Source of the DNA: Bombiscardovia coagulans
Lineage (GTDB): Bacteria; Actinomycetota; Actinomycetes; Actinomycetales; Bifidobacteriaceae
Direction of reading: 5' to 3'
Assembly (NCBI RefSeq): GCF_002259585.1
Contig: NZ_MWWS01000005.1
Location: forward strand, 124,001-188,000
Length of the DNA: 64,000 nt
In this document: piece after piece, positions 14,640 through 23,094 of the stretch
How positions within the stretch are numbered: position 1 is the stretch's first letter
Layout: each line of letters starts with the position of its first letter
The notes under the pieces: generated by a model
The model's input: the letters and a program-made list of their open reading frames with translations, nothing else
The model's database searches: none
Told to the model about the DNA's origin: nothing
Program-made: the position numbers and the translations under genes

Positions 14640-15764
14640 ATGGACCAAATGTCTGCTATGAGTTACGGCTTCAACAGTTTTGACTCTCTTTCGATGACTT
14701 CGACCGGACGTTCGCGCTGTGTTAACGCGGAAAACCCTACCGGTGGTAAAGGGCAGGCAGCTATGACAGCTAGTCATCTGGGTCCTTCCCGGAAAGGAAC
14801 ACCTTGCTTGAATACTGTTCAATCAGGGGAGTCAGTGACGCTGATGGATGTGGACGGACCAGGAATCATACGGCATATCTGGATGACAGTGACCGATAAA
14901 ACCTCGCCGACCGGGCCTAATGTGTTGCGTAACCTGATTTTGGAATTCTACTGGGATGGTGAGCAAACCCCATCGGTGGAGTGCCCTATAGGTGATTTCT
15001 TTTGCTGCGGGCATGCGCAAGCTTGTCAGGTTAATTCGCTGCCCGTTATGGTGAATCCGAACCGTGGTTTTAACTGCTTTTTTGCTATGCCCTTTGAACA
15101 TGCAAAAATCGTGCTGCGTAATGATCATAATGAAGATGTACCTGCCTTTTTCTATCAAATTGATTACACAGAGCTAGACTCTTTACCTGCGGAAGCAATG
15201 CGTTTCCATGCACAGTGGCGCAGGCAGAAGGTTACCAGTCTCGCTCAGGATTACGTAATTTTGGATGGGGTTCGTGGGCGAGGTACCTACCTGGGTACCT
15301 ACCTTGCGCTGACGGCTTTGGAAAGTCGTTGGTGGGGAGAAGGTGAGGTGAAAATCTATATGGATGGTGATGATGAATATCCCACCTGGTGTTCTACAGG
15401 TACGGAAGATTACTTTGGTGGAGCTTGGAGCTTTGCTGGTTTTAATGAACAGGGTTCCATGCATGAGCAAACCTATAGCGGTCCTTTCATGGGGTTCCCC
15501 TTCCGTTCTCAACGGTTACTTGGCAGGGAGAGTGATTACTGGGATCAATCTGCACCCGTTATGCGTGGTTTATACCGCTGGCATATGGCAGATCCCATAT
15601 ATTTTCAAAAAGACATTCGGGTAGAAATTCAACAAATTGGTACTGATGAAATGGGACTTTTTGAAAGGTCTGACGACCTAGCGTCGGTGGCCTACTGGTA
15701 CCAGCTGGAGCCCCACCAGTCCTTCCCGCCACTGGCTGATCGGTACGGCCGTCAACCCAGATAG
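14640..15764 (+). CDS. GH172 (DUF2961) glycoside hydrolase
   Basis: The 374-residue protein has the hallmarks of the DUF2961 family, now classed as GH172. These are the early stretch GPGIIRHIWMTV, the glycine-rich centre, and the signature TGTEDYFGGAW around residues 255-265. Characterised GH172 enzymes act on fructofuranosyl substrates (difructose anhydride or inulobiose, in Bifidobacterium) or on arabinofuranosides. There is no signal peptide, so it acts in the cytoplasm on imported oligosaccharides. It follows the cassette 2 transporter in the same direction, which points to its substrate being what that transporter brings in. The exact sugar cannot be read from sequence. Confidence 0.85.
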   Translation: MDQMSAMSYGFNSFDSLSMTSTGRSRCVNAENPTGGKGQAAMTASHLGPSRKGTPCLNTVQSGESVTLMDVDGPGIIRHIWMTVTDKTSPTGPNVLRNLILEFYWDGEQTPSVECPIGDFFCCGHAQACQVNSLPVMVNPNRGFNCFFAMPFEHAKIVLRNDHNEDVPAFFYQIDYTELDSLPAEAMRFHAQWRRQKVTSLAQDYVILDGVRGRGTYLGTYLALTALESRWWGEGEVKIYMDGDDEYPTWCSTGTEDYFGGAWSFAGFNEQGSMHEQTYSGPFMGFPFRSQRLLGRESDYWDQSAPVMRGLYRWHMADPIYFQKDIRVEIQQIGTDEMGLFERSDDLASVAYWYQLEPHQSFPPLADRYGRQPR

Positions 15765-15899
15765 GTAGGTGAACTGCGCTTATACTAACGGTTGCATTGC
15801 TAGTTGTAATATAAAAACGCTGCCATACGGACGATTGAGATATTGTCATTCAGTCTAGTAAGACAGCGTGTAGTTACCGATTTTACCTTTCAAGTTTTG

Positions 15900-17718
15900 T
15901 TAACTCTTTTTAAAATATCCACTCCGTTCTATGAGAACAGCAGCTAATGCTCCAACAAGTAGTAATGATGTAGCAATGAGCATGAGAATAACATTAGATC
16001 CCGTGTTTGCAAGATCGTAATCTATTGGCTGCTCTGAAGTTGCTGGTCTTTGTGGTGTGTGGTGGTCGGTGTGTCCTTCTGGTGGTGTGATGGGTGGAAC
16101 GTTGCCAGGCGGTGTGGCTTGGCTGGTGGCATGGTTTTCGAACTTGACGTTCCATGCTGCTTTGTTTCCATCGTGTACTCGGATTTTGTATGTGATGTGG
16201 ACGGTTTGGCCTTGATTGAAAGATCCTTTCCAAGAGAGTATGCCGTTGGACACAGTGTGTGCGTCTCCGATATCGGAGACTGGGTTTTCTAGCAGGTCAG
16301 CGTGTTTGAGTACATCGGTCAGGTTGTCGTTGACGCTCACTTGGAGCAGGTCGGTTTGGCCGGTGTTGATGCCTTGGAGGGTGTAGGTGATTACGTCTCC
16401 GGGCATGACCTTGGACCCGGTTTTGGGGTCTGATGACTTCTTGAAGTCATAACCGGGAACATTAACAGCGAGTTTCGCTGAAGCTGTCGCTAATGGATAC
16501 AGGGATAGCTGATCGATAGCGAAATCGTTGCCCCAACTACCTTCTTTATAGTTACGTGCGCTAATGGTAAGCTCGTTGCTATCTCCAGTGTTGACGATAG
16601 AGGAAATGGGAGTCCAGTGGGTCTGGCTATTGAGAGCTCCTGTTTGTTTGGGTGATTCTTGTGATGTGCCTATGAAATTTTCATTAACTACGAATCCAAG
16701 CTGAACTGGATCGACAGTGTGGTCGCTGTATGGATAGTCACTAAGATTAGCTATAAAGCCTTGTACGGTGTAGTCAGTGTGTGGTTTCAAACCCCTGACT
16801 GTCGTCTTGATAATGTCGTGAGGGATGGGAAACTTCCGAGAACCATTTACGATCAGAAGTTTACCTGATTGAGATGATTCATCATTACTTACGACTCTAG
16901 TGTTAACGGATGATGTGTGCTGTCCGCCAGTCATCCAATTTTCGGTGATTTCGTCACTGGTAGGTATTTGCATGGGCTTATCAATGCTTCTAATATCGGC
17001 CCAGTAGTTGTTATAAGGACGTGTTGTTCCTTCCCACCACCAGTCTTGTTTTACATCAGGTCCGTTCATGTCACCTGTTGGCCAAATAGAGTAGTAACCA
17101 TCCATCGGTCCGTACTGTACTGTATCTACATCGTCAGGATGGTCCTCATAGGCAGTTTGTGGATTGTGGTACTTGTATGGTGATGATCCGTCGGGGAGCT
17201 TTGGATGAGATTGTCCAATGTAGTCAAAAGAACCGTGGTCAAAATCGGTAATAAGATTCGGTGATTTTGTAATTCGCGAGACTTTAACGTCACTAAGTGT
17301 GCCACTGAAATCAGAGGGAGGAACTACGCGGATTATTTTGATAGTCTTACTGAAAGAATAAATGATTGGATCTGGGGGAATGGGGATTAGTTTTTCCGGA
17401 CCGTAAACCGACCAGCCTGAAGGAACTCCAGAAAGTGAATAGGAAGCGAAATTAGTCTCACTGGTATTTGCATCGCTTATGGTTAAAGTAAACCCGTCAG
17501 GTGAGCCTTGAGCGACAACATCTGGGGAAATATTGACAACGAGGCCATCATTTCTAGAGCTTGTTATTGCATTCGCGGGGGGGGGGTAGGATAAATGCTT
17601 CGGGCATGGATACTGCTATCAGACTGACCATTGCAGTACATAGAAGCTGAAAAATCCAACTTAGTTTTTTAATATATACACACATATGCAAATATTTGTA
17701 TGCCTTCTGCTTGCCCAT
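15900..17718 (-). pseudogene. Sortase-anchored surface protein split by a C10 tract (probably phase-variable, OFF here)
   Basis: On the minus strand a start at 17718 (or 17685, MCVYIKKLSW) opens a signal peptide: WIFQLLCTAMVSLIAVSMPEAF. It then reads into a run of ten C (17586-17577) and stops nine codons later at a TAG. Beyond the run, the next frame is open for over 550 codons without a stop. With nine or twelve C the two parts join into one protein of about 605 residues. The long part holds extracellular beta domains, a region like isopeptide-forming repeat domains (SKVMPGDVITYTLQGINTG...VNDNLTDVLKHADLL), a Thr/Pro-rich linker, and a C-terminal LANTG motif, membrane helix and FKKS tail. 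LAXTG is a target of class E sortases. Downstream ATG 17105 alone would give no signal peptide. The role is probably adhesion or another surface function. Confidence 0.8.
17577..17586. repeat. Homopolymer tract G10 (C10 on the coding strand)
   Basis: Ten consecutive G sit at the signal-peptide end of the surface-protein gene. Such tracts slip during replication; a change of one base would restore the frame here. See the gene entry for what each length encodes. Confidence 0.95.
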
Positions 17719-18796
17719 CGAGCATGCCTATAATATCATCGTAGAAAAAAATTCGCTACATAGTAGTGACTAAGTGAGTGCGGCTATAAAACAAAAGAAC
17801 ATCCGATGATGGTTTTAACTTCGGGAAAGTAAAAATACTCACACAGTGGTCATTCAATGACAAGAAAAGACAAAGAACAGCTTGCAAAGGATCATGCAGC
17901 TATGAAATAATTATATAGGATAACAAGCTGGAACCTTATTTGTAAGATCAGAGGCACAGTAAATTTGCGGTTAATACGAAGGCAAACTTGTTTTTTCATG
18001 TTTATTAATCATTCCAATTGGTAAAGATTAGCTGACGTAGATAGAAAGATAGTAGTTATTCGTCTATGTATGATATTGTCAACGAGTCGCATAAATGCAA
18101 TGCTGTATTAGCAAGTCATATCAACATGTCAAAAATTGGAAAAGACTGGAATTGCACTTGTGCTACTGGTTGTTTGAAATAACGCGAGATTTTAGAAATT
18201 GTATGTTTATGATTAATTGGTATGGTGATTTACTGCTTGCCTGATGAAGTCGAATGTTAGTTGGACTTTAATATTGGTAATTGTGATATATATGGCGAAA
18301 TTGTAGGTTGGATATAGTGAATTGATTATGCATGAGAGTTGGTTGACCCATTCTGTGTGTCAATAAAACTGGCCTTGCGATAATTGAATTGCGCTGTTTT
18401 CTTAATATCAAGTGTCTCTTTAGATTCGAGCACGAAACCTTTTAGGTGACAGTACGAAGATTATAAAAAATCTTATACTCAAATGTGTAGAATATCTAGT
18501 AGAGATAAATTGTCGTTTACTTTGGTCATCTTTTGTGGCAGCTGTGCCACAAAAGATGAATGTCGTATAGCGGTGTTCAAAAAATGTTTACAACTTAACG
18601 TCCACGAATCCGAAATAGAGCATGTGGAATAAATAATATGCGAACGACATGCTACATTGGTATCATTACGCATGTGTGAACTCCCTTTTGACTGGGGCTT
18701 TCAGATGTAATCCGGCAAGATATGAGTCTGAAAGCTTATAGTTTATGGATTAGAGTGTGTTACATAATGGTTCTACTTAAAAGGTAGAACCCTTTA
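17719..18796. other. AT-rich region without genes, containing a strong hairpin
   Basis: No protein or RNA gene is supported over about 1.1 kb, and the DNA is AT-rich with scattered stops. The only strong structure is a perfect 14-bp inverted repeat, CATCTTTTGTGGCA (18527-18540), loop GCTG, then its complement (18545-18558). A second, weaker one is GGTTCTAC (18769-18776) with GTAGAACC (18784-18791). Neither has a U-run after it. This may be decayed accessory DNA. Confidence 0.5.
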
Positions 18797-19012
18797 TTAA
18801 GGTGTGGTAGCAAGCTCCTTCGTGTTATATGTGGAAGACAACCCAAGAACAAAATCAGCAGAAAGACCAAACATATTGTGTGGGCAAATTAGATCATGTT
18901 CCTGCCATCGGGTAACTCCATTCACTTTGTTGCTTATGTTCGCTAGTGTCTGACTAAGTAAAGAAGAAAACTCACTATAGGATATTCCTTGCTTCCTCAG
19001 CCAGAGCTTCAT
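18797..19012 (-). CDS. Small XRE-like helix-turn-helix protein, perhaps a remnant
   Basis: The 71-residue product resembles the core of a Cro/CI (XRE) domain. It has WLRKQGISYSEFSSLLSQ as helices 1-2, NISNKVNGVTRW as the recognition region and MFGLSADFVLGL at the end, close to the usual FGVSTDYLLG. There is no convincing ribosome site and the gene lies among debris, so it may not be expressed. Identification rests on pattern alone. Confidence 0.45.
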   Translation of the reverse strand: MKLWLRKQGISYSEFSSLLSQTLANISNKVNGVTRWQEHDLICPHNMFGLSADFVLGLSSTYNTKELATTP

Positions 19013-19018
19013 AGATTA

Positions 19019-19191
19019 GCACGCATGCATATGACAGTACGGAAACGCATCAAATATATACAACCAAGGTAGAACCTTGTGTAATGAAAGGTAATCATTC
19101 ATGGACCAAATGTCTGCTATGAGTTACAGTTTCAACTGTTTTTCAACTCTCTTTCGATGACTTCGCCCGGACATTTGCGCTGTGTTAATGC
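19019..19191 (+). pseudogene. Broken second copy of the GH172 gene start and its leader
   Basis: Bases 19019-19191 match 14557-14730 with scattered differences. The match covers the leader with its CAAGGT-N3-ACCTTG dyad, the ATG at 19101 (MDQMSAMSYSFN) and about 30 codons. An inserted base then shifts the frame into a stop, and similarity ends abruptly where catalase sequence begins. This is the stump of a duplicated GH172 gene. Confidence 0.85.
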
Positions 19192-19917
19192 AGATATGAC
19201 ACCATCGACCGCAAGGACTATCCGTCATGGAAGGTGTGCATACAGATCCTGCCGTATGAAGAGGGCCTCAACTATAAGTACGACATCTTCGACGTGACCA
19301 AGACCGTTTCCCAAAAGGACTATCTCTGCATTGAGATAGGTAAATTCACCCTGAACGAGAATCCCGTCAACTACTTCGATGAAGTCGAGGAATTAGCGTT
19401 CTCGTCTGCGAACCTCGTTCCCGGCATCCCGGCATCGAACCTTCGCCCGGCAAACTCCTGCAAGGTCACCTATTCGGCTATAAGGATGTTGAGTGCTACC
19501 GCCTGGGAGCGCACTACGAGCAACTCCATCAGCATACGGTCAACGAAGTGTACAACTACGAGCGTGACGGATTCATGTCGCAGGGATAGGAATCCTCAGT
19601 GAACTACGAGCCGAACTCCATCATGTACCGGTCGAAAACAACGGCACTCGTATGCATCCCGACTAACTCCACGGAGAGACCGAGTACTCGAAGCCATACG
19701 TGACGGACCACTATTCCCAGGCAGGGGATCTCTAACGTCTCATGAGTGCGGATCAGAAAGATCGCCTCATCGACACACCATCGCCGGGACACTGTGGATG
19801 GTGGGTGGCGAGGAGATCAAGACGCTGCAGGCCAGACAGTTCTATACAACGGACCGCGAGTACGGTGAACGTGTCGCCATAGCTTCAGGTCTCTCTATGG
19901 ACGGTATCTACGCATAG
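19191..19917 (+). pseudogene. Catalase gene remnant (N-terminal part missing, frameshifted)
   Basis: Translation in shifting frames gives the C-terminal half of a clade-3-type catalase. It reads YKYDIFDVTKTVSQKDYLCIEIGKFTLN, NPVNYFDEVEELAFSSANLVPGI, then in another frame HLFGYKDVECYRLGAHYEQL and VYNYERDGFM. After a stop come NYEPNS, AGDL.RLMSADQKDRLI and GEEIKTLQARQFY...YGERVA. The heme-binding N-terminal half with its catalytic His and Asn is absent. Several frameshifts and stops rule out function. Catalase is rare in bifidobacteria and known mainly from insect-gut species. The DNA looks richer in G+C than the sugar cassettes, suggesting acquisition. Confidence 0.85.
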
Positions 19918-20049
19918 TTTGGATTCGTGGCGGCACGTGGGTGGAGGAATCTGGGTATTGATCTCCTGACCCTCACCCAGCCCAGTGTGCATAAGGCTCG
20001 GTATGGCCCTTGGACACGTCCGCGCTCGTGGTCGCGCCCAAGGGCACTG

Positions 20050-20424
20050 TCAGGAATGACGTTGGAAAACGGTTCTGGCGACATTGACTGCATTGATGAC
20101 CCTCGGGAACCCGACATAGGGGGAGGTTTGGAGGATGGCCTGGACGACTTCGGCCCGGGAGAGTCCCACATGTAAAGCTGCGGCGATGTGGACCTCCAGC
20201 TGGGGTTCGGTTCCGCCTTGAGTCACCAGGCTTCCTAAGGTCACAAGTTCACGCTGCCTGGCATCAAGCGTCTGGTTGGCATACACGTCGCCGAACGCGA
20301 ACTCCACGATCCACCTCCCCAGTTCGGGTGCTATGTCCTGCAGTGAATCAATGACTGCCTGACCGCCCTGCCCATCGATGGCATCCAATATACTCGAACC
20401 GCGTTCAAATCTAGACTCGTCCAT
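20050..20424 (-). CDS. Carboxymuconolactone decarboxylase family protein (AhpD-like fold)
   Basis: The intact 124-residue protein starts at ATG 20424 after AAGGAG. Family features are ELGRWIVEFAFGDVY near residues 34-48, LDARQRELVTLGSLV, and the C-terminal TSPYVGFPRVINAVNVA. Members include gamma-carboxymuconolactone decarboxylases and stress-related proteins with an AhpD-like fold. The CxxC of true AhpD is absent, so a peroxidase role is unlikely. It diverges from a MerR regulator with a shared promoter region that has the MerR layout, so it is probably that regulator's target. The substrate is unknown. Confidence 0.85.
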   Translation of the reverse strand: MDESRFERGSSILDAIDGQGGQAVIDSLQDIAPELGRWIVEFAFGDVYANQTLDARQRELVTLGSLVTQGGTEPQLEVHIAAALHVGLSRAEVVQAILQTSPYVGFPRVINAVNVARTVFQRHS

Positions 20425-20461
20425 GACTGCTCCTTCATCTTGGTGTTGTATGGCTTTTTAC

Positions 20462-20492
20462 AGAGTAGGATATGAACCAAGGTTTAGGGCAA
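20462..20492 (-). promoter_or_regulatory. MerR-type promoter with 19-bp spacer for the decarboxylase-like gene
   Basis: On the minus strand TTGCCC (20492-20487) and TACTCT (20467-20462) form a -35/-10 pair 19 bases apart. That is longer than the normal 17 and typical of MerR-activated promoters. The dyad AACC-TT-GGTT lies within the spacer, where MerR proteins bind and twist the DNA. The promoter points to the gene at 20424. Confidence 0.65.
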
Positions 20493-20503
20493 GTGGAGGG
20501 AAT

Positions 20504-20851
20504 ATGAGAATCAGTGAGGTTTCGGACAGGACACAGTTGCCTGTGTCCACCCTCCGATATTACGAACGCAGAGGCATCCTGCGACCCATGAGATCTCCGG
20601 AAGGATACAGGGAATACAGGGAACAGGATCTTTCTTGGATCGCTTTTGTGCAGCGCCTGTTGGGCATAGGTATGTCCTTGGCCCAGGTCGAGGAATACTC
20701 GCGTCTGCGCGAGCATGGCGATTCGACCATTCCTGAGCGGTTGGATATGCTGTACTGCCAGCGTGAGCAGCTCACGGCAAAAATGCGGGAGGTTCAAGGG
20801 CAGATGGATTTCATCGACAGGAAAATCGACATCTACCGGCAGATGATGTGA
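20504..20851 (+). CDS. MerR-family transcriptional regulator
   Basis: The 115-residue protein starts at ATG 20504 after GGAGGG. The N-terminal winged helix-turn-helix reads MRISEVSDRTQLPVSTLRYYERRGIL, followed by YREYREQDLSWIAFVQRLLGIGMSL and a C-terminal dimerisation coiled coil. There is no cysteine-rich metal site; the C-terminus is short, as in the AdhR/stress-sensing group. It diverges from the carboxymuconolactone-decarboxylase-like gene and probably controls it. Confidence 0.9.
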   Translation: MRISEVSDRTQLPVSTLRYYERRGILRPMRSPEGYREYREQDLSWIAFVQRLLGIGMSLAQVEEYSRLREHGDSTIPERLDMLYCQREQLTAKMREVQGQMDFIDRKIDIYRQMM

Positions 20852-21360
20852 GGTTTCGGCAACGATTGTCCTTCGTGCAAAGTCGCGTCCGCTGTCCACG
20901 GTATGCCCGAAGAAGACGTATGGGTCGAAGTCCATGCCCGTGATTGCTTCTATCTCGACTTACTGCCTTTTCCATGGGAGCCAACCAACCTTTGGGCTTA
21001 TGTCGGAGAAAGGAAAGGACTTCCTTGTTGGACGGTCTGGATTCGACTCAACGAGACACCGTCGCTGTTGACGAGGAAATGTGCCGCGCCCACCCCTTCC
21101 CGTTTTCCGTTAACTGCTATGCGTGGAATTACGACAAACGCTTGATGCATAGGTCTCTTTACTCTAGCGGCACTCTCGCAAATGTTACCTGGTTCACGGC
21201 ATTTGCGATTCGAAGACGTTCTGGGCATAGGGGGATGTTCTCGGGGTCTCGCTTGACGAGCTGCTCGATGCCACAAGAATGTCGAAAAACTTGAAGAGAA
21301 ACAGAAAGAGAGTCCGACTCGTTGATGGCGCTTAGTCGCCAGATAAAAAATGGTAATAAA
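20852..21360. other. Region without a recognisable gene between merR and the tRNA-Lys scar
   Basis: Several short open frames exist on both strands but none has a ribosome site or a familiar product. The composition resembles the preceding catalase/merR block, so it may be the decayed rest of the same acquired segment. Confidence 0.5.
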
Positions 21361-21390
21361 AGCACCTTGGCTGCTTGGGGCCGAGGTGCT
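21361..21390 (-). terminator. Terminator stranded next to the tRNA-Lys fragment
   Basis: Read on the minus strand, AGCACCTCGGC pairs with GCCAAGGTGCT across a short loop and is followed by TTTATT. It lies ten bases beyond the 3' end of the truncated tRNA-Lys copy. It is best explained as the original tRNA terminator, separated from the intact tRNA by the inserted element. Confidence 0.75.
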
Positions 21391-21400
21391 TAGTTCAGCC

Positions 21401-21444
21401 AGTGCCCCCCCTCGGATTCGAACCGAGAACCCACGACTTAAAAG
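21401..21444. repeat. Attachment-site copy: 3' half of tRNA-Lys
   Basis: These 44 bases are identical to 27906-27949. They run from the anticodon loop to just past the discriminator base of tRNA-Lys(UUU). Identity ends sharply on both sides. This is the pattern left by a tyrosine recombinase that integrates into a tRNA 3' end. Confidence 0.9.
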
Positions 21445-21639
21445 ATTGGGGGGGGGGGAATAAGCGAAGAATTCTCTTGCATTTAGGAAATATTCATGGC
21501 TTTGTATCGCAATGTTTTAGTAGAGTGTGCAGCGTTACGTTATTTTTTTTGCATGATTGGCGTTCAAATATAACTAAATTTCGCTGGTTTGTTAGGTTGT
21601 GGACGTATCTGGCAGTTGAATTAGCCTGCATAGTCCGGC

Positions 21640-22050
21640 CCTCCGGGGTTGGTGGATACCGTCGACCGGGTGGGCGTTGCGCCGCAGCTCGCACGACACA
21701 CTCGAGAGGCTGTGGTCCAGAAGATGAGCCATGGCCTGCACGCCCAGGCCTTGCCGGGGGGGGGCAAGAGTCAGTCAGGGCCAGGAACATTCGGTCCTCG
21801 TTGCGGTCACAAACCCTGGTGTGCCCGTTACACCAGACCTTACCAGTGCGTTTGCCTCCGCCAGGCCGGCTGCCTGAGTGAAGTTCAATCCCGATTCCAA
21901 GGCTCGCACTACGCCACCCCTCCGGGCCTGGCATATCTCCACGGCCTTCGTAAGCCAAGCCACCGAGCACCCACAAACACTTCGCAGCACCCACTCATCC
22001 ATCTCCCCAATCAGACGAGTGTTGCAACGATCCCTAGAACCCGCCAAGTG
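21640..22050 (-). pseudogene. IS30-family transposase remnant
   Basis: Pieces in different frames on the minus strand give the N-terminal part of an IS30-like transposase. One is GGVVRALESGLNFTQAAG, a first helix-turn-helix. Another is RTGKVWCNGHTRVCDRNE after a frame change. A third is GLGVQAMAHLLDHSLSSVSCELRRNAHPVDG, a second helix-turn-helix like the IS30 STVSRELRRN motif. The catalytic DDE half is missing. A run of nine G at 21756-21764 and another of eleven at 21448-21458 lie in or next to it. The fragment is dead. Confidence 0.6.
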
Positions 22051-22178
22051 CAGTCGATGGACGGGGGGTCTAGTGTGACTCTTCGTCAGTTAGTGAGCAG
22101 ACATAACAGCTATATTCTTCTGGCTTGCAGCCTGCTCCGAGGGCAATACGACAAAGCCAGCTTCTCTTCATTGAAGGG

Positions 22179-22406
22179 TTATTTTTTTGTTTGCTCTGAG
22201 AAGTAGAGCAGCACTGAGAGTGAAAGTATAAAAAGGATAAAGAACAGCAAGATACAAATCCACAAAAGACTCGACTGTGATTGATCGAACTGACTATAAA
22301 GGTCAGCATGCTCATCGCTATAGACTCCAGTTTTTATTTGCATATAGACTGTGAGAGCTAAGCCAAGGAGGCTCAGAGCATTCATAATAAGTGCAAGCAC
22401 TTTCAT
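22179..22406 (-). CDS. Small two-helix membrane protein, unknown
   Basis: The 75-residue protein starts at ATG 22406 after GGAGGGAG. It has two membrane segments, LIMNALSLLGLALTVYMQ and LLWICILLFFILFILSLSVLL, joined by a polar acidic loop. Family not recognised. Small membrane proteins next to ABC exporters often serve immunity or regulation, but nothing here proves that. It is transcribed away from the exporter genes. Confidence 0.6.
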   Translation of the reverse strand: MKVLALIMNALSLLGLALTVYMQIKTGVYSDEHADLYSQFDQSQSSLLWICILLFFILFILSLSVLLYFSEQTKK

Positions 22407-22615
22407 GGGTATCTCCCTCCATAATCTTAAGCTAAAGCGAGCTAGTATAACGTGGTTAAGACTGAATAATAGTTACGGTAGAGGGACATAAAGTAACCTT
22501 CCAACGTAAACGCCAGCGAAAAATGCTATGGGTTACACAGTTTTGCTAAATAAGTACCAAAACTAGGGTTGGGCCTGTCAGGTTCAAGATTGAAAGCTGA
22601 TTTCCAAAAGGCAAA

Positions 22616-22753
22616 ATGGAAATGGCATTCATACTGGTTAAACATACCATGTACATTTCTGTCTCTCGAGCGGCTATTGGCATAGTGCTGGCAAGCGCTA
22701 TTGTTGGTTTGGTAATCATGGCTAATAGGGATTTATCATATGAGAGTTCTTAG
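22616..22753 (+). CDS. Possible 45-residue hydrophobic peptide
   Basis: ATG 22616 opens a frame with one hydrophobic helix (AAIGIVLASAIVGLVIMA) and a short charged end NRDLSYESS. AAAAGG precedes the ATG, rather close. It points toward the ABC genes at 23095. The flanking bases 22407-22615 and 22754-23094 show no other gene. It could be a leaderless peptide or a chance frame. Confidence 0.3.
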   Translation: MEMAFILVKHTMYISVSRAAIGIVLASAIVGLVIMANRDLSYESS

Positions 22754-23094
22754 GTAAGGTAGTCTTCTACTCTCCGTACGAATTCATTAACGTTGGTACT
22801 ATAGTTCGGATAAGCTATGCTCAGTTGCTTGCCTTTTCCGTGCATGAGAGTAACTCGACTATCTGTCTTAATTATTTAGGTTGAAGCGATGTAAGTGCCA
22901 TATTTATAGCTGAGGCTCATTGAACCCTAAGTACTAGTTAAAACTGTTCGTAATTGATGAATTGTTGTATTCTGACATGGTAACCCGTGTTGAACATGGT
23001 ATTTTCACGGATACAGGTAAGACGTTGATCCAGCGTAATGGACTGTGTTGTCTCATAAACCAATATAACAACTATGTTAGGCGGTGAAATTGCT

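Follow-up and report, generated by a model that had tools for sequence, protein, structure and literature searches.

A tract of ten C residues at the boundary between the h- and c-regions of a signal peptide was identified in a surface protein gene of Bombiscardovia coagulans, and replication-slippage phase variation, that is a simple-sequence contingency locus, is very probably the best explanation for this gene. The locus lies in a stretch of 64,000 nucleotides, here called the window, from strain DSM 22924, which originates from the bumblebee digestive tract and has a GC content of 47.33% (PMC5540593). The G/C homopolymer exceeds about eight residues and stands early in an otherwise intact frame, as is characteristic of contingency loci, and is followed by 558 open codons. 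The tract reads as G10 on the plus strand and thus as C10 on the coding strand (Table 1). The first-pass annotation had described this run between a leader and a long open frame, with a leader frame that stops soon after it and a full frame that returns with 9 or 12 C, and all of these points were reproduced.

Table 1. Features of the switch gene, in coordinates of the window
Feature	Position	Strand	Basis
C-terminal hydrophobic helix, then positive tail FKKS	15924..15992	-	translation; helix 523-557 in a poor structure model
LANTG sorting motif	15999..16013	-	translation; LGMTG at the same column in B. bohemicum
DUF7927 / DUF11-like Ig-fold domain	16059..16451	-	Pfam PF25549, E 6e-35
Surface protein body, 558 codons and stop, open, in the assembly not in frame with the leader	15900..17576	-	
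C10 slippage tract at the signal-peptide h/c boundary, encoding Pro	17577..17586	-	sequence; frame restored only at 9/12 C; same place in B. bohemicum
OFF-state frame, 43 aa and stop: signal peptide n- and h-regions, then RECNNKL*	17554..17685	-	translation
Leader before the tract; possible starts ATG 17718, TTG 17691 and ATG 17685	17587..17718	-	translation and sequence
AGAAGG, Shine-Dalgarno-like, 11 nt 5' of TTG 17691	17703..17708	-	read from the sequence

Read from ATG 17685, the leader (MCVYIKKLSWIFQLLCTAMVSLIAVSMPEAFILPPP-) begins with positive charges, has a long hydrophobic core and extends to FILPPP, and as assembled it continues with RECNNKL to a stop, giving 43 amino acids in total. 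Simulation of tract lengths from 7 to 13 joined leader and body only at 9 C (594 aa) and 12 C (595 aa). The size of about 605 residues proposed earlier holds for translation from the upstream in-frame ATG 17718 but not from ATG 17685. A start at TTG 17691 or nearby is favoured, since the only AGAAGG Shine-Dalgarno-like site stands there. A promoter search on the minus strand at the locus returned nothing above shuffled sequences, and no Rfam families were found within 15800-23000. The C10 tract is not a chance product, as C9 words occur six times in the 64-kb window compared to 0.30 expected from shuffles, none of which reached six. In the entire genome (1,741,326 bases in 15 contigs) 12 C/G runs of at least 10 are present, the C10 tract among them.

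The restored product comprises a signal peptide, an N-terminal region, the DUF7927 Ig-like domain, LANTG, a helix and a terminal KKS. Judged from the translation, it combines the signal peptide, LPXTG-like motif, hydrophobic helix and positive tail of a sortase-anchored protein, in agreement with the undamaged long frame ending in LANTG and a membrane helix that had been noted before. In the restored frame the tract encodes Pro-Pro-Pro directly before A-N-A, a sequence that fits a signal-peptidase -3,-1 site; signal peptide and cleavage site were both assessed by inspection of the translation. A structure model of the body, built from a two-sequence alignment, reached a pLDDT of only 41, and the sequence search against solved structures gave a single match (E 0.056) and nothing useful. 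Models for major pilins of the SpaH/EbpB and RrgB type were likewise not matched, TIGR04226 scoring 21.8 bits where the cut-off is 30. The genome has six sortase genes, all of them outside the contig that carries the switch gene (C11); the latter is a single gene outside any pilus operon.

The orthologue in B. bohemicum DSM 22767 likewise has a C10 tract in the homologous position, and its deposited sequence is out of frame too. With 11 C it would be read through from ATG 2879, which is preceded by a Shine-Dalgarno-like AAAGGA, to give 590 aa. The bodies of the two proteins are 65% identical, with a pS of 0.78, i.e. saturated, and a dN of 0.27. On these values the body is clearly under purifying selection, which implies that it was translated over the time since the two lineages split. 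After restoration both orthologues read PPPA(N/T)A, and their sorting motifs, LANTG and LGMTG, occupy the same column. Conserved Pro codons elsewhere in both genes are CCC in both at only 6 of 39 positions, so that three consecutive shared CCC codons are expected at about 0.004. With synonymous sites saturated, inertia would not suffice to preserve an unbroken run of C; the tract has been retained across genera beyond what conservation of the protein demands. Leaders and neighboring genes differ between the two loci, which indicates that tract and body travelled together. As a related species has the same run in the corresponding position, the tract gives the impression of a retained switch, not of damage. 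A search for orthologues in 27 genomes of the genus yielded only matches to the DUF7927 domain.

The arrangement is repeated elsewhere in the genome. Three of the 12 C/G runs are placed where a signal peptide meets a long frame, namely those of the window gene and of two genes for giant adhesins, L009 and L015. L015 harbors a C13 tract followed by 1399 codons with SdrD_B and SpaA domains and LPLTGG, and L009 a C10 tract in a gene that is truncated by the contig end. Around the tract these paralogues share 98% identity, but the tract itself has 10 C in one and 13 in the other. Homologues with the tract at the same place were found in two further genomes, two in G007 (11 C) and two in G018 (10 C). 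In total, six homologous giant LPXTG adhesins from three species contain 10 to 13 C immediately behind the signal peptide. In the assemblies, each of the eight C-tract loci studied in detail is in the OFF state, for which the probability is 0.039 if the loci were independent and one third of them ON, although the paralogues are not independent. The sequences of L009 and L015 agree almost completely at either end but have diverged in between, a pattern suggestive of recombination between the two genes.

C/G runs occur frequently in 26 of the 27 genomes of the genus. The runs of at least 10 listed for G023 and the listed part of those in G007 were surveyed with strict criteria: a leader with a positive start and a hydrophobic core, a Shine-Dalgarno-like site, and at least 150 open codons after the tract. 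Among the tracts listed, 22 of 42 in G007 qualified, compared to 2 of 587 random positions (Fisher p 6e-27), and 6 of 36 in G023, compared to 20 of 667 (Fisher p 0.001). These counts are lower bounds, because the scan misses the L009 and L015 adhesins, whose starts are unclear. Most of the qualifying tracts among those listed for both genomes are in RCC1-repeat proteins with a Listeria-Bacteroides repeat domain, and 7 of the 28 signal-peptide tracts listed are in frame. The RCC1 genes of G007 form tandem arrays with a spacing of about 3.6 kb, and their signal peptides contain G10-11. RCC1-repeat surface genes in tandem arrays, most of them with G10 or G11 in the signal peptide, were seen in L069 (G007 C1:796504-816404), L055 and L068, and are candidates for a large phase-variable repertoire. 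The RCC1 gene of B. coagulans itself is intact and lacks a tract, which shows that the tract is no fixed part of this family.

Slippage in an intragenic G tract has been described as a switch for the pilus genes bbr_0113 and bbr_1889 of B. breve UCC2003, where tracts of 10, 11 and 12 coexist in the bbr_0113 population, slippage and pilus display were measured, and passage through the mouse gut was accompanied by enrichment of ON cells (Penno et al. 2022, PMC9187656). The bifidobacterial precedent invoked in the first-pass annotation is therefore real. As in that system, a signal peptide and an LPXTG body from the same bacterial family are encoded in two ORFs that are joined only at certain lengths of a tract of 10-11, and the reference state is OFF. 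The B. breve tract, however, consists of G on the coding strand and lies in the gene that heads a pilus operon with its own sortase, whereas the present one consists of coding-strand C in a stand-alone gene whose contig lacks sortase genes, the host inhabits the bumblebee gut, and slippage is predicted from the sequence. As coding-strand G and a pilus operon are both missing here, the locus is not a pilus switch, though it would work like one. Arrays of RCC1-repeat LPXTG surface proteins have been reported for bee gut bifidobacteria (Ellegaard et al. 2015, PMC4449606); these share with the window gene the membership in a wall-anchored surface repertoire of bee-associated Bifidobacteriaceae, but the protein family is unrelated and the RCC1 tract is G. 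The portion of that article that was searched does not mention homopolymer, phase, frameshift or slippage.

In more distant bacteria, Neisseria, Campylobacter and Haemophilus possess simple-sequence contingency loci with G/C homopolymers early in surface-related genes. The B. coagulans gene resembles these in its frame switching, but they belong to Gram-negative surface systems, whereas here the tract is at the h/c boundary of a Gram-positive wall-anchored protein.

Homopolymer runs of such length can also slip during transcription. The main rival explanation of the three considered is recoding, in which the gene is always out of frame and slippage of RNA polymerase or ribosomal frameshifting on the C tract yields a small constant fraction of full-length protein. 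Constant low-level recoding would equally leave all eight C-tract loci out of frame as assembled. It would, however, favour one direction, whereas the window gene is one C above the nearest in-frame length, B. bohemicum is one C below, and the adhesins have 10, 11 or 13. In addition, a quarter of the signal-peptide tracts listed for G007 and G023 are in frame, and in B. breve the length variation was measured at the level of DNA (PMC9187656). Recoding is thus regarded as unlikely.

Decay of the gene after one recent slip would bring it in line with its surroundings, as the gene-poor stretch upstream contains remnants of two genes, one for a catalase (19234-19599) and one of the DUF2961 type (19101-19190); that the locus adjoins decaying DNA counts against a switch. 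The body nevertheless contains no other damage in 558 codons under purifying selection, and independent decay at the same run would have to be assumed for B. bohemicum, which makes this explanation very improbable. The earlier preference for a switch over decay is upheld by the tract in an orthologue at saturated divergence, by selection on the body, and by the recurrence of the design in six adhesins and many RCC1 genes. An error of sequencing or assembly, with a true majority length of 9 and a gene that is always ON, is the least probable of the three. Length calls of homopolymers are indeed less reliable than those of other bases, and in B. breve the majority of a tract was G12 where the reference has G11 (Penno 2022, PMC9187656). 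The existence of the tract is secure, since B. coagulans DSM 22924 was sequenced by Illumina MiSeq at about 220x (PMC5540593), the ten C being its length as assembled. A one-base error would also leave unexplained why runs of 9-12 C are kept in orthologues and paralogues, and interpretation as a slippage switch is independent of which length is in the majority.

In the proposed slippage switch, DNA polymerase would add or remove one C in the tract, and at lengths that are multiples of three, signal peptide and body would be read as one protein. After export and cleavage at A-N-A, a sortase of the cell would attach this protein to the wall, where it would be displayed as an adhesin or as a surface protein that binds a ligand. 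All other lengths would yield only the leader peptide of 43 amino acids and leave the surface without the protein. The assembled genome would represent the OFF state, with a minority of ON cells expected in the population. Use of the h/c boundary could be explained if a helix-breaking residue (Pro from CCC or Gly from GGG) is tolerated or even favoured there, so that gain or loss of a whole codon would be harmless and a single base decisive. No match to the MutS family was obtained in the genome, while the profile is present in 11 of 14 control genomes. NucS is present, which is not known to correct small insertions and deletions. The reversibility attributed to the switch in the first-pass annotation is inferred, and the same applies to variation of tract length in populations, display of the ON protein and its ligand.

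The findings would extend slippage switching in the Bifidobacteriaceae from pilus operons of the human gut to a wall protein that a bumblebee symbiont encodes in a stand-alone gene. Conservation of the tract between genera is comparative evidence for selection on the switch itself. The data suggest that bee bifidobacteria diversify their surface by slippage on a large scale. We are inclined, with some reservation, to assume a family-wide, multi-gene phase-variable wall proteome in bee-gut Bifidobacteriaceae: the DUF7927 protein, the giant LPXTG adhesins and the RCC1 arrays would have acquired G/C tracts independently at the same h/c and cleavage spot of the signal peptide, where poly-Gly or poly-Pro is tolerated, and each cell would express few of many surface proteins. 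If true, switching on this scale would explain heterogeneity of clonal gut populations, and annotation of 'pseudogenes' in such surface families of a strain would be misleading.

The tracts of the B. coagulans genome outside surface genes are mostly intergenic. A run of 11 C at 5254-5264 of L014 (G000 C11:71253-71263) is located 64 bp upstream of the start of a gene for a sugar transferase of the exopolysaccharide-priming type (PF02397) and is a candidate for a promoter-length switch. Another run, of ten C, at 4326-4335 of L017 lies between the genes for a thiamine-binding protein and a LacI-type regulator, at a distance of about 110 bp from the start of the latter. The catalase fragment upstream of the switch gene corresponds to profile positions 252-320 of PF00199; assignment of the ORF at 19234 to a second DUF2961 gene copy was rejected, as it is this fragment. 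Directly before it, the DUF2961 remnant repeats, with 90% identity, the initial 86 bases of the complete DUF2961 gene at 14640-15764. ARAGORN reported no tRNA at 21404-21458, where the minus strand shows a sequence resembling the 3' half of a tRNA (GGTTCGAATCCGAGGGGGG); a G11 run follows. A further run, G9, occurs at 21756-21764.
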